Source: Olivibacter sitiensis DSM 17696
GTDB taxonomy: Bacteria; Bacteroidota; Bacteroidia; Sphingobacteriales; Sphingobacteriaceae
Assembly: GCF_000427965.1 (NCBI RefSeq)
Contig: NZ_ATZA01000020.1
Location: forward strand, 1-64,000
DNA length: 64,000 nt
Reading direction: 5' to 3'
How positions within the stretch are numbered: position 1 is the stretch's first letter; every line of letters begins with the position of its first letter. The position numbers were made by a program, and so were the translations under genes. The notes beneath the pieces are model-generated. The model saw only the letters and a list, made by a program, of their open reading frames with translations. It did no database searches and had not been told where the DNA came from. Below, piece after piece: positions 7,637 through 24,880 of the stretch.

Positions 7637-8347
7637 TTAGCATCCCGGGTATAGTGTAACGTGTAACGCGAACTGTGCCATCTGGATCAACCTATTCCTA
7701 AAAGCTATCATGTCCCAGTCGTAGTCTGTCACCAAATTTAATATGGAGTTCTGAAATGGATATACCTCGGTTTCTGACAGTATAGGCCTATCAGGTCCTT
7801 GCGGCATCGGTATCGACCCCAAGGATATTGTAGATCGCACGGGTCTCCATCGTCCCGTTGTGGTGGATCTTTTAATGCATACAGTCCAGAAATACAAAGG
7901 GATATACTGCATCCAGCGGACGGTTCCACCATCGGTGACCTGCGGAAGCACCGCATCGGTGGTACGCGATATTTCCGTGGCAGATATCTCCATGGCGTAC
8001 ATGCTCAAAACACTGCCTTCCAGCTCCTCGATGAGGATCAGCTGCCGCTTTGGGACAATCTTCGGCTCAAAGGATCTTTCTCGGTCACGGCCGGTCTCCA
8101 GCTCGAAACTGCCGCCGCTCATGCTCCTGACTGTTTTCTTGCTCTTGCCGTTGCGGCGGTTCGGCTGACCAGAGCCCTTTTCGTCGTCCAGATGGTTGTT
8201 CAGCTCGCCATCCAGCATCGATTCCAATAAATGATTCATCAACGGTGCAAAAACACCGTCCGTACCGACGGCCTTCTTGCCCGCGTACAATCCTTCCATT
8301 GTTTCCTGTTTGAAGCGCTCGAAGTCAAAGGGTTCTTTATCTTTCAT
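7637..8347 (-). pseudogene. IS256-family (mutator-type) transposase, frameshifted and truncated
   Basis: The first ~130 codons from ATG 8347 match the N-terminus of IS256-family transposases (MNHLLESMLDGEL, RNGKSKKTVRS, YAMEISATEI). After VLPQV the homology breaks between frames: DLIGLY appears in one frame (within 7738-7956) and LSETE in another. The reading frame then joins sequence near the left terminal repeat and stops at 7637. About 400 residues are expected and the catalytic region is not continuous in any frame, so the transposase is dead. Confidence 0.85.
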
Positions 8348-8421: not shown

Positions 8422-8751
8422 TCAGACCAACTCAAACCCAAGATTCCTGCTTAGGTCCTCTATCTGCGGAACTAATTCTGGTAAATTATTCAGGTTATCT
8501 TTTTTTGTTGCAATACTGATATTGATGGTAATACGGGGGCTGCTTTCCAAATATTTCAATTTGGAATCTTCTGACATGCTGTCCATGATATCCTTGTATA
8601 CATAATGGGTGAAATCTAGGCCGGAAGCATCTTTTAAAGATTGTAAAAAAGCGATATCAAATTTTTTCCTGGTATCTATCTGGTTGATCGTTTGCCTGGA
8701 TACATTCATCTTTCTAGCGACCACAGATCCCTTTATACCCCGTTCTTTCAT
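8422..8751 (-). pseudogene. HTH regulator, first copy, start codon lost
   Basis: 109 codons from ATG 8751. The helix-turn-helix is near the N-terminus (VARKMNVSRQTINQI). It is almost identical to residues 17-125 of the protein at 10081-10458, with six differences by eye. Homology continues upstream of 8751 in frame (KSLGEIIRET), but the codon matching the other copy's ATG reads ATC and one codon has been gained, so the proper start is missing. It may still be made from the internal ATG, without the first 16 residues. It is divergent from the ATPase gene at 8915. Confidence 0.65.
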
Positions 8752-8811: not shown

Positions 8812-8848
8812 TGATTGACAAACGGATCAGGTATGAATAACGTTACCG

Positions 8849-8903
8849 ATTTTTATTTTTGACAAATACGGAATCACATTCCGTATTTGTCAAAAATAAA
8901 AAT
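8849..8903. promoter_or_regulatory. Perfect 26-bp inverted repeat with 3-nt centre, upstream of the ATPase gene
   Basis: Arms 8849-8874 and 8878-8903 are exact reverse complements around CAC; the core is GACAAATACGGAAT. The repeat lies between the divergent HTH copy and the ATPase start at 8915. It could be an operator for the HTH protein, a transcript hairpin in the ATPase leader, or the end of a mobile unit. TAGCTTTG at 8904-8911, directly after it, matches the Bacteroidota -7 element. The structure is seen in the sequence; its function is inference. Confidence 0.8.
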
Positions 8904-8914
8904 TAGCTTTGCAT

Positions 8915-10078
8915 ATGATAGCAAGGATAGCGGCAGATAAGCTAAAGGATTTGGCGAGGAAATTTCCTGCCATTGGCTTGTTGGGACCTAGACAAAGTGG
9001 AAAAACCACTTTAGCAAAGGCATTGTTCAGTGATAAGCCATACGTGAGCTTCGAAAATCAAGACAATCAATTGGCGGCAGATACGGATCCCAACGGTTTC
9101 CTAAAAGGATTCCCGATGGGTGCGGTATTTGATGAAATACAGCGAGTACCCCTTTTGTTCTCCTATCTACAAGGCATTATAGACGAGCAACCGGACAAGA
9201 CGGGCCTGTTTATCCTCACGGGCTCACAAAATTTCCTTTTGCTGGAAAGTATTACGCAGAGCTTGGCGGGTAGGATTGCATTTGTCCATCTTTTGCCGTT
9301 CAGTTATCCGGAACTAAAGCATACGCCTTTTGGCGATGGCCCTATTGACCACTTGTTGTTTTGGGGCGGTTATCCCAGGCTATATGACAAGGGCATGCTA
9401 CCGAGCGACTATTATCCCAATTATATTCTTACCTACGTAGAAAGGGATGTAAGACAAATAAAGAACATAAGCAATCTGACCTTGTTTCAGCGCTTTTTGA
9501 AGATATGTGCCTCCAGGGTCGGTCAGGTGGTCAACTATGCCTCTATCGCCAACGACTGCGGAATAGACCAAAAAACAGTTGCGGTATGGATTGGGATACT
9601 GGAGACCAGTTTCATAGCCTTTACACTTAGACCTTATTATAACAATTTCAGCAAGCGATTGATACAAATGCCCAAGCTTTACTTTTATGATACGGGCTTG
9701 TGTTGTTCCCTGCTGGAAATGGAAGAAGTGGGGCACCTGTCAAACCATCCGTTAAGGGGGAGCATTTTTGAGAATTTTGTGGTACTGGAGCTTTTGAAAA
9801 AGCGGTTGAACAGTGGACAAAGGGCCAATCTATATTTTTGGCGCGATCGTACCGGGCATGAGATCGATGTGTTGGTGGACAAGGCAGGTGGCGCCATGCC
9901 CATTGAGATAAAGGCATCCCAGACCTATAATAAGGATTTTTTGAAAGGGATAAGCTATTGGAAGGGGATACAGCCCGCTAGCACCGCATCGTTCGTTATA
10001 TATACTGGTAGTGGTGGTCTGATTCAGCATGATACTCAGGTACTGAACTGGAGACAGATTGATGATATACCCGTATAG
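8915..10078 (+). CDS. AAA_14/DUF4143 family ATPase
   Basis: 387 residues from ATG 8915; a TTG at 8909 is the only earlier start. Walker A is GPRQSGKT (24-31), Walker B is VFDEIQ (D73/E74), and LTGSQN near 100 is sensor-like. The C-terminal half is DUF4143, with a HEIDVLVD...PIEIKAS stretch that has the ExD...ExK spacing of PD-(D/E)XK folds. This family is highly repeated in Bacteroidota and its cellular role is not established. The gene ends 2 nt before the convergent intact HTH gene and is preceded by the 26-bp inverted repeat. Confidence 0.9.
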   Translation: MIARIAADKLKDLARKFPAIGLLGPRQSGKTTLAKALFSDKPYVSFENQDNQLAADTDPNGFLKGFPMGAVFDEIQRVPLLFSYLQGIIDEQPDKTGLFILTGSQNFLLLESITQSLAGRIAFVHLLPFSYPELKHTPFGDGPIDHLLFWGGYPRLYDKGMLPSDYYPNYILTYVERDVRQIKNISNLTLFQRFLKICASRVGQVVNYASIANDCGIDQKTVAVWIGILETSFIAFTLRPYYNNFSKRLIQMPKLYFYDTGLCCSLLEMEEVGHLSNHPLRGSIFENFVVLELLKKRLNSGQRANLYFWRDRTGHEIDVLVDKAGGAMPIEIKASQTYNKDFLKGISYWKGIQPASTASFVIYTGSGGLIQHDTQVLNWRQIDDIPV

Positions 10079-10080
10079 TG

Positions 10081-10458
10081 CTACACTAACTCGAACCCCA
10101 ATTTCCTGCTTAGGTCCTCTATCTGCGTAACTAATTCTGGTAAATTATTCAGGTTATCTTTTTTTGTCGAAATACTGATATTGATGGTAATACGTGGGCT
10201 GCTTTCCAGGTATTTCAATTTGGAATCATCTGACATGCTGTCCATGATATCCTTATAGGCATAATAGGTGAAATCTAGGCCGGAAGCATCTTTTAAAGAC
10301 TGTAAAAAAGCGATGTCAAATTTTTTCCTGGTATCTATCTGGTTGATCGTTTGCCTGGATACATTCATCTTTCTAGCGACCACAGATCCCTTTATGCCCC
10401 GTTCTTTCATGGTTTCTTTTATGATTTCTCCTAGCGATTTCGCTTTTTTATTTGACAT
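10081..10458 (-). CDS. HTH DNA-binding protein, intact copy
   Basis: 125 residues from ATG 10458. A basic N-terminal tail (MSNKKAKSLGEIIKET) leads into a helix-turn-helix (VARKMNVSRQTINQI); the rest is helical with an ITINISISTKK strand and an acidic/Leu end. It is probably a small transcriptional regulator of XRE-like architecture. It converges on the ATPase gene with a 2-nt gap. The upstream DNA holds TTGCTTT at 10472, 10494 and 10535 that could be binding sites (inference). Its duplicate at 8422-8751 lacks the first residues. Confidence 0.75.
   Translation of the reverse strand: MSNKKAKSLGEIIKETMKERGIKGSVVARKMNVSRQTINQIDTRKKFDIAFLQSLKDASGLDFTYYAYKDIMDSMSDDSKLKYLESSPRITINISISTKKDNLNNLPELVTQIEDLSRKLGFELV
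10081..10458 (-). repeat. Direct repeat, copy 2 (HTH gene)
   Basis: Same-orientation partner of 8422-8811. Together the copies enclose the ATPase gene, so homologous recombination between them would delete it. Confidence 0.85.
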
Positions 10459-11136
10459 GTTCTAATTTATCTTGCTTTTTGTAAACTTTATTTTGCTTTA
10501 TAGATGTTTTTGCGGAAGAAAATGTATTTTTTTCTTGCTTTATGGCTTTTTATTGTTTACATTTGGCTTATATATATTAGGAATTACGCAAGATTCGTTC
10601 TTTTTTATGTGCTAAATCTTGTTTTGGTGCGTTCATTACCGTTTCCGTGACCGCATATTGGAGAAATGAATAGATTTGTTTTTTATTTATATTTTCAACT
10701 AAATTATACGTACAATCAACAAACACACACACAGTCAACAAACACACACATGAAAACTAAATTATTGTTCCAATCCGATTCGTCTATTAATGAATAAATA
10801 GGTTCTGTCTTGAATTTCCTCTTTCAAAGAATTTGCTAGTGATGGCGTGGGTCTGTGTTGCCCATCTTCCTTGTGAATGATTGCAAAAGGGGGTGAAAAT
10901 AATAGTAGATCAATTTATTAATAGTCGCCAACACACATGAAAACCTACTTTACAACACAACTTAACTCGTTCCTTACCCTGCAAAGGTGCAAGTCGTATG
11001 TGATATCTAATAAAAATTGCCGCTGGAAAAATAGGGATAGAATTGTATTGTCCAGATTTTTTTGAAGGTAAGGGTATCAGGCGTGAAAATTATTTAATAT
11101 CAATTTTTTATTCACTATTAACTCAAACAATCACAC
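10459..11136. other. 678-bp gene-free stretch before susC, with two aborted start regions
   Basis: There is no convincing gene. TAGATTTG at 10671-10678 is a possible -7 box, without a good -33. Two short frames begin in a context like that of the real susC start (ACACATGAAA): 10750-10797 (15 codons, MKTKLLFQ...) and 10937-11065 (42 codons, MKTYFTTQ...). The DNA is A/C-rich before each, with CAACAAACACACAC repeats at 10710-10750. They may be remnants of earlier susC 5' ends or leader peptides. Confidence 0.5.
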
Positions 11137-22618: not shown

Positions 22619-24880
22619 ATGATGAGATCAAAAATTATACTAACATTTCTAACGCTGCTGTTCGGAACAATGGTCATGGCGCAAACAGGCACCATGCGGG
22701 GTTCTGTACGGGATGTAAAGGGCGAAGCTATTGCCTATGCAACTGTCAGCATCCCTAAATTGAAACTGGGTACATCGGCCGACAGTACCGGCAAATATGA
22801 ATTGGCGGATATTCCCTTGGGTACCTGGCAAGTACAGGTAAGTTATATGGGGTACGACAGCTATTTTACTGCTATTGCTGTCAGCAATGCATTGCCGATA
22901 GAAAGAGACTTTACCCTGAATATTGGAGATGCATCACTGGGCGAGGTTGTTATAACCGGAACGATGAAAGATGTGAGCAGATTGGCCAGTCCCATTCCTG
23001 TAGAGGTCTATACGCCTTCGTATTTCAGGAAAAATCCAACCCCAAGCCTATTTGATGCTGTTGGAATGATAAATGGCGTACAACCGCAGCTTAATTGTAA
23101 CGTATGCAATACGGGAGATATACACATAAACGGTATGGAAGGTCCATACACGATGATATTGATAGATGGGATGCCGATAGTGAGTGCATTGTCTTCGGTA
23201 TACGGTTTGAGTGGTATACCCAATAGCATGGTAGAACGAATTGAGGTGGTAAAAGGACCCGCCTCATCCCTTTATGGATCGGAAGCGATGGGAGGTATTA
23301 TAAATGTTATTACCAAGAATCCACTAAGCGCACCTATGCTGAGTGCAGATGTTTTTGGTACATCCTGGGGAGAGATCAATGCCGATGTGGGCACAAAGTT
23401 CAATATCGGTAATGCCACCGGTCTCTTGGGCGTCAACTACTTCAATTATAAGAACAAAGTGGACAACAATGATGACAATTTTACGGATATGACCTTGCAG
23501 GATAGGATATCTGTCTTCAACAAATGGAATTTCAGAAGAAAGGAAAACAGGGTGGCCAGTATTGCTGCTAGGTATGTCTACGAGGACCGTTGGGGAGGAG
23601 AGATGAACTGGAACAAGTCTTTTCGAGGTAGTGATGAGGTTTATGGAGAAAGCATATATACAAAAAGGGCAGAGCTTATAGGACTGTATCAACTGCCAGT
23701 GAAAGAACGGATTTTTACGCAATTTTCATATAATTGGCATGATCAAAATTCCTATTATGGAGATGTACCCTATATGGCTACACAGCGGGTGGCCTTCGCG
23801 CAGGCTTATTGGGATAAACAAATTGGAGCTAATCACGATTTCTTGCTTGGGGTGGCCATGCGCTATACCACTTATGATGATAATACGCCGGCCACTGCCT
23901 CTGCCGATGGTTCGAAAAACGAGGTGGCCAAGACGCCTTTGCCCGGTATTTTTGTTCAGGACGAATGGACTTTGAACGATAAGAATACGGTATTATTGGG
24001 CTATCGCTATGACCACGACAAGAACCATGGTAATGTGCATTCCCCTCGTTTTGCATACAAGTTTTCTCCCAATAACAACAACACTTTACGGGCAAGCTTC
24101 GGCACGGGATTCCGTGTGGTCAACCTTTTTACCGAAGACCACGCTGCCCTTACTGGGTCTAGGGAAGTGGTCATTGCAGAAGAGCTAAATCCAGAGAGGT
24201 CTTATAATGGAAACTTGAATTATGTGCTTAAGATACCCACAGAAAGCTTTTTTCTGGGCTTTGATATCACTGGTTTTTATTCTTATTTTACCAATAAGAT
24301 TATTGGCGATTATGATGTAGATCCAAACCAGATTGTCTACGACAATTTGAGTGGGCACGCTGTTTCCAGGGGTGTATCGCTGAATACGGATTTGACCTTT
24401 ACCTTTCCTTTGAAGGTATTGGCGGGAATCTCCTATATGAACGTGTATCAGATGAGGGAAGATGATTTAGGCGTTAAAGAAAAGGTAGTGCAATGGCACG
24501 CTCCAAAATGGTCTGGTACGTTTGTGGCATCTTATGCTTTCCCTAAGGGGTTTTCGGCAGATTTTACGGGACAGTGGAACGGACCTATGCGTTTGCCCAT
24601 ACAACCCAATGACTATCGTCCAGAATACTCTCCATGGTTTTGCGTGGCCAATGTACAGGTAACGAAAAAGTTCGACAAAGGAATAGAGATATATGGTGGC
24701 GTAAAAAATCTATTTAACTTCATCCCCAAATACCCGCTTATGAGGCCTTTTGATCCTTTTGACAGAACCGTGGACGACCCAGTAAATAATCCTTATGGCT
24801 GGACTTTTGATACCGAATACAATTATGCATCGTTGCAGGGAATTAGGGGGTTTTTGGGCATAAGGTACAATTTGTTTTAG
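22619..24880 (+). CDS. TonB-dependent receptor with Cys pair in the plug
   Basis: 753 residues. Signal peptide ending VMAQ (about 1-21), carboxypeptidase-regulatory-like domain 23-105, plug about 120-235 (ILIDGMPI, IEVVKGPASSLYGSEAMGGIINVIT), then a 22-strand-type barrel ending in RYNLF. The plug holds C160-N-V-C163, a short Cys pair conserved in a subset of Bacteroidota receptors as far as I recall. The next gene, 41 nt downstream, encodes a secreted thioredoxin-like protein. A metal or metal-complex substrate is plausible but unproven. The start is ATG 22619 or 22622. Confidence 0.92.
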   Translation: MMRSKIILTFLTLLFGTMVMAQTGTMRGSVRDVKGEAIAYATVSIPKLKLGTSADSTGKYELADIPLGTWQVQVSYMGYDSYFTAIAVSNALPIERDFTLNIGDASLGEVVITGTMKDVSRLASPIPVEVYTPSYFRKNPTPSLFDAVGMINGVQPQLNCNVCNTGDIHINGMEGPYTMILIDGMPIVSALSSVYGLSGIPNSMVERIEVVKGPASSLYGSEAMGGIINVITKNPLSAPMLSADVFGTSWGEINADVGTKFNIGNATGLLGVNYFNYKNKVDNNDDNFTDMTLQDRISVFNKWNFRRKENRVASIAARYVYEDRWGGEMNWNKSFRGSDEVYGESIYTKRAELIGLYQLPVKERIFTQFSYNWHDQNSYYGDVPYMATQRVAFAQAYWDKQIGANHDFLLGVAMRYTTYDDNTPATASADGSKNEVAKTPLPGIFVQDEWTLNDKNTVLLGYRYDHDKNHGNVHSPRFAYKFSPNNNNTLRASFGTGFRVVNLFTEDHAALTGSREVVIAEELNPERSYNGNLNYVLKIPTESFFLGFDITGFYSYFTNKIIGDYDVDPNQIVYDNLSGHAVSRGVSLNTDLTFTFPLKVLAGISYMNVYQMREDDLGVKEKVVQWHAPKWSGTFVASYAFPKGFSADFTGQWNGPMRLPIQPNDYRPEYSPWFCVANVQVTKKFDKGIEIYGGVKNLFNFIPKYPLMRPFDPFDRTVDDPVNNPYGWTFDTEYNYASLQGIRGFLGIRYNLF

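Follow-up and report, generated by a model that had tools for sequence, protein, structure and literature searches.

A palindrome that travels with PDC-S01-type ATPase genes is a predicted operator read by the ATPase itself

In a stretch of 64,000 nucleotides from Olivibacter sitiensis DSM 17696 (contig NZ_ATZA01000020.1, positions 1 to 64,000; here called the window), we studied a perfect inverted repeat located directly upstream of a gene for an ATPase of a putative defence family. The repeat covers 55 bases (8849 to 8903, without strand) and consists of two arms of 26 nt (8849 to 8874 and 8878 to 8903) that are complementary at 26 of 26 positions around the centre CAC, as an earlier note made from the sequence alone had described. 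A repeat search revealed no second inverted repeat of such quality in the window, the sole other match being an 83% overlapping palindrome at 22872 to 22907. The right arm ends 11 nt before the ATG of the ATPase gene at position 8915, the distance given in that note. Furthermore, a genome-wide search found the 55-base palindrome in a single copy, at the ATPase locus, and an exact search in 201 genomes of the family yielded one match, which appears unrelated.

The ATPase gene (8915 to 10078, plus strand) encodes a protein of 387 amino acids with an AAA_14 domain (amino acids 18 to 134) and a DUF4143 domain (176 to 335), both of which exceed the curated cut-offs. The protein also matches the PADLOC profile PDC-S01 (E value of 4e-96). 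By this profile it is a member of PDC-S01 (AAA_14 plus DUF4143, COG1373), a single-gene candidate for phage defence. The family has been described as an ATPase fused to a PD-(D/E)XK domain, an architecture that the protein shares (PMC12988326). According to the same source, PDC-S01-type ATPases rank fourth among the most common putative defence systems in prokaryotes, and most PDCs still await validation. The PD-(D/E)xK-like fold was assigned by alignment and family description to amino acids 306 to 387 (9830 to 10075, plus strand), where E316, D318, E331, and K333 are invariant in an alignment of 17 homologues, i.e., the motif is conserved. An AlphaFold model of the ATPase (mean pLDDT of 88.8) contains a putative winged helix at amino acids 188 to 257, with helix 1 at 188 to 199, helix 2 at 208 to 215, a recognition helix at 219 to 231, and wing strands at 235 to 238 and 254 to 257. 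The core of this winged helix-turn-helix (wHTH) domain, amino acids 203 to 262, is encoded at 9521 to 9700 on the plus strand; the assignment is our reading of the secondary structure in the model, and HTH_36 gives a weak match at amino acids 207 to 231. A sequence search of the PDB returned no useful relative, and Foldseek yielded distant matches only. The best of these, the archaeal Walker-type ATPase PABY2304 (PDB 2QEN, ranked first) and Orc1/Cdc6, have TM-scores below 0.5, which indicates a broad relation only, and we know of no operator for either.

Comparison of homologous loci indicates that the palindrome is specific to the ATPase gene and inherited with it. Within the same bacterial family, a near-perfect palindrome lies 0 to 23 nt before the ATG of almost every ATPase gene that reaches about 46% identity or more; the arm sequences vary, and symmetry is kept in each around GGAAT-NNN-ATTCC. 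Dyads of this design are also located just 5' of the start codon in homologues from many phyla that are 44 to 67% identical. The same holds for most of another 80 homologues collected from other orders and phyla, among them Geobacter, Chloroflexi, Omnitrophota, Spirochaetota, and the archaeon Methanoculleus (the site at locus L104, for example, reads TTTGGACAAATTGTAAAT-CAT-ATTGACAATTTGTCCAAA). A symmetric weight matrix describes the half-site as TTKACAAATnnGGAAT, with a 3-bp centre. In the window, the left half-site is TTTTGACAAATACGGAAT (8857 to 8874, plus strand) and the right half-site (8878 to 8895) has the identical sequence on the minus strand; here the arms remain perfect far past the conserved positions.

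Of 83 ATPase upstream regions, 72% contained a dyad scoring at least 9; among 324 control open reading frames (ORFs) at the same loci, the share was 8%. A matrix built from 17 loci of the own family found a site (p <= 0.01) in 25 of 44 held-out upstream regions from outside the Bacteroidota versus 5 of 110 control ORFs. In the reverse test, a search of 401 genomes of the order turned up 11 occurrences of the exact core: six before an intact ATPase gene, two before a truncated one (L138 and L213), two inside unrelated genes, and one 3' of rsmG (L214, genome G307), where sister species carry the ATPase. The operator thus helps to find decayed ATPase copies, since 2 of the 11 sites flagged truncated genes. 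The earlier note had suggested that the palindrome travels with this ATPase family and named an alignment of the upstream regions of related genes as a check, with the absence of a similar palindrome counting against the idea; palindromes were found. No neighbouring gene is conserved, none being common to more than 7 of the 83 loci. As the palindrome is unique in the genome, no neighbour is shared, and the adjoining helix-turn-helix (HTH) gene described below is nearly absent elsewhere, the palindrome and its reader must travel together, which leaves the ATPase as the sole candidate.

We also analyzed the position of the palindrome relative to predicted promoters. Between palindrome and start codon lies a predicted Bacteroidota -7 box, TAgcTTTG (8904 to 8911, plus strand), 3 nt 5' of the ATG, identified from the sequence and its consensus position (PMC9723704). 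In Bacteroidota, this box has been mapped to -12 to -5, and leaderless or very short-leader mRNAs make up only ~4 to 6% (PMC9723704, PMC7366714). Of 69 Bacteroidota-type loci, 29 have TAnnTTTG ending 3 to 4 nt ahead of the start codon; a shuffle control with 3 to 5 nt allowed gave a mean of 0.27 loci. Of the 44 other loci, 14 have a -10 hexamer ending exactly 6 nt ahead of the start codon, and the right half-site there often contains TTGACA. An initial -35/-10 scan was uninformative in Bacteroidota because their promoters differ. Since the box lies between palindrome and ATG at this spacing, transcription should start at about the ATG, 3' of the palindrome, which implies a nearly leaderless ATPase mRNA as predicted from the box position. 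The palindrome would then act as a DNA operator and not as a leader hairpin; it is a symmetric site at a predicted promoter, as expected of an operator.

To identify the reader of the site, mutual information was calculated between all protein columns and operator bases at 76 non-redundant loci. The three top-ranking pairs were residue 220 (K in the window) with base -4, residue 219 (Q) with base -6, and residue 218 (D) with base -4, at the beginning of the putative recognition helix (codons D218-Q219-K220 at 9566 to 9574, plus strand). For residues 218 to 220, the partial r was 0.694 against a background standard deviation of 0.097. Wing residues 248 and 252 pair with base -12, and residue 312, in a loop of the PD-(D/E)xK-like domain (codon R312 at 9848 to 9850, plus strand), pairs with the outer-arm base -14. 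K220 occurs with G(-4) in 58 of 58 half-sites and H219 with G(-6) in 49 of 50; V, I, T, or L at position 219 occurs mostly with T(-6) and S or Q mostly with C(-6), while K or R at position 312 goes mostly with G(-14) and S or N mostly with T(-14). The ATPase of the window fits this code, combining Q219 with C(-6), K220 with G(-4), and R312 with G(-14), the specificity bases of its half-sites.

The code was then applied to 44 new loci less than 85% identical to the training set, of which only those with a located site were scored. It was obeyed by 39 of 42 half-sites at -14 and by 33 of 36 at -4, the latter being partly easy because one residue-220 rule permits two bases. When the wHTH domain and residue 312 were excluded from tree building, 11 of 13 changes of base -14 fell on a branch where residue 312 also changed (1.3 expected, p = 0.0002), and same-branch changes likewise exceeded expectation for 220/-4 (p = 0.0004) and 219/-6 (p = 0.0024). 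These results strongly indicate that the ATPase gene's own product recognizes the palindrome, likely through its winged-helix domain.

Taken together, the sequences show a site that is conserved along with the gene across phyla, lies over a predicted leaderless promoter, and co-varies in its bases with residues of the ATPase. This makes it very probable that the palindrome serves the ATPase gene as a dedicated DNA operator, where the ATPase binds and probably represses its own promoter. The operator function that the earlier note had listed among its options is thus supported. Each half-site would be occupied by one ATPase protomer, the two protomers being inverted relative to each other, with the recognition helix (amino acids 218 to 220) reading bases -4 to -6, the wing (248 and 252) reading base -12, and the loop of the nuclease-like domain (312) reading base -14. 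The bound ATPase would shut off its own gene; such negative autoregulation is to be expected from the position of the site, which overlies the -35/-33 region and directly adjoins the -7/-10 box of a promoter firing at the start codon. What we infer from these patterns is that the ATPase physically binds the site, in this dimer geometry and as a repressor, not an activator; any link to ATP or phage attack is inferred as well. A further idea, which we hold to be rather unlikely, is that the palindrome serves as an address where the ATPase/nuclease assembles and is held in check until loss of the site or its occupation, e.g., by invading DNA, releases or triggers the enzyme; every copy of this very common candidate defence gene might then come with a legible address of its own, defined by a small amino-acid/base code.

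Next to the autoregulatory operator, the other explanations raised by the locus were weighed. If transcribed, the palindrome is predicted to form a very stable hairpin (folding of 8840 to 8940 gave a z-score of -8.9 versus shuffles), and it could be imagined as an mRNA leader structure that blocks translation, as the earlier note had proposed, or recruits RNase III. However, the conserved -7/-10 box between palindrome and start codon would place the transcript start past the palindrome, and mismatches between the arms show no wobble bias (G.T/T.G 20 versus A.C/C.A 22), contrary to the G-U tolerance of an RNA stem. Moreover, loci with direct-repeat or multiple half-sites (L079 and L029) are unable to form this single hairpin, and an Rfam search of the palindrome returned sub-threshold microRNA models only, as any long hairpin yields. 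A leader hairpin is therefore extremely unlikely. Binding by the neighbouring HTH protein, implied by the earlier note, would fit a divergent regulator/target pair: two HTH genes, 94% identical and both on the minus strand, flank the ATPase gene as direct repeats (8422 to 8751 and 10081 to 10458), one of them divergent from it. The HTH gene does not accompany the palindrome elsewhere, however; a close relative was found in 1 of 60 other genomes of the family, on a contig other than that of the genome's ATPase, whereas the palindrome accompanies the ATPase in many phyla with no conserved neighbour. The operator bases also co-vary with ATPase residues, and the intact HTH copy has different repeats upstream, which makes an operator for the HTH protein most improbable.

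Alternatively, the palindrome could be a recombination or transposition site that forms the end of an element and allows the ATPase/nuclease to move. The gene has spread very widely by transfer and is found on plasmids (386 plasmid records), its product has a PD-(D/E)xK-like domain, and genome G307 contains an operator without the gene. In contrast, a repeat search around the gene found no matching second end, the palindrome keeps a fixed spacing to the promoter, and the rsmG locus of Pedobacter shows ragged decay with truncations and start-codon loss, not precise excision. That decay pattern speaks against transposition at the rsmG locus. The recombination site suggested in the earlier note gained no positive evidence, and we consider this explanation very unlikely.

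Several observations weigh against autoregulation by the ATPase. In about one quarter of the homologous upstream regions, a dyad of this design is not clearly visible, and among distant paralogues there are direct repeats or no obvious site. At the window locus, no convincing -33 element is visible. The -6 rule held out of sample for only 24 of 38 half-sites (63%). Motif and co-variation rest on the same located sites, although the matrix that located them gives the co-varying positions -4 and -6 little weight (0.22 and 0.14 bits). Finally, the nearly intact operator that persists alone 3' of rsmG in G307, where the ATPase gene is gone, would not be predicted by pure autoregulation.

The operator is not universal, as this matrix detects no clear site at the Wolbachia copy or at one Runella plasmid copy. 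The former is located on the Wolbachia plasmid pWALBA2 (L246), and a faecal contig labelled as phage (L249) carries the ATPase with a good operator; scans of viral contigs with two operator patterns gave no matches. Operators beside missing or truncated ATPase genes are found at L214:2581 (G307), L213:2736, and L138:1501. At L093 and L029, two or three operators lie upstream, and at L079 tandem direct half-sites take the place of a single palindrome. Distant DUF4143 ATPases (L033 to L040 and L003) have direct repeats upstream with a spacing of ~22 to 24 bp, probably the same principle at another spacing, and L007 has a repeated palindrome. Multiple sites, direct half-sites, and 22- to 24-bp repeats are what would be expected were each half-site read by a single protomer.

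In the surroundings of the ATPase gene, the left HTH copy (8422 to 8751) has lost its full-length ATG (now ATC) and may be a decayed duplicate. Upstream of the intact copy, three imperfect direct repeats around TTGCTTT(A/T) at 10466 to 10551 are possibly that gene's own operator. The adjoining locus at 7637 to 8347 contains a remnant of an IS256/Mutator-family transposase that scores below the NCBIfam equivalog cut-off.

The searchable literature on DUF4143, COG1373, and palindromes contained nothing on regulation of this ATPase family, and we found no earlier description there of the operator or the residue-base code. Likewise, the passages that tally PDC-S01 mention neither operator nor regulation, whereas the gene in the window has a predicted operator. 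As far as could be found, a DNA target of PDC-S01-type ATPases was previously unreported. Operator and code would give the family its first concrete DNA target and a predicted regulatory circuit, and the code predicts DNA-contacting residues, including one in the nuclease-like domain.

BirA and PutA are enzymes that repress their own genes, and DnaA autoregulates. The proposed circuit resembles these in that control of the promoter would lie with the gene product itself, an enzyme or AAA+ ATPase equipped with a DNA-binding domain. The families are unrelated to the present ATPase, however, which is encoded by a solitary gene accompanied by its operator in many phyla and whose nuclease-like domain also appears to read bases. 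Controller (C) proteins of type II restriction-modification systems likewise autoregulate a DNA-acting system via symmetric promoter operators (PMC4824078, PMC6237814). While C proteins are small, separate HTH regulators, in the case of the ATPase the enzyme itself is likely the regulator.
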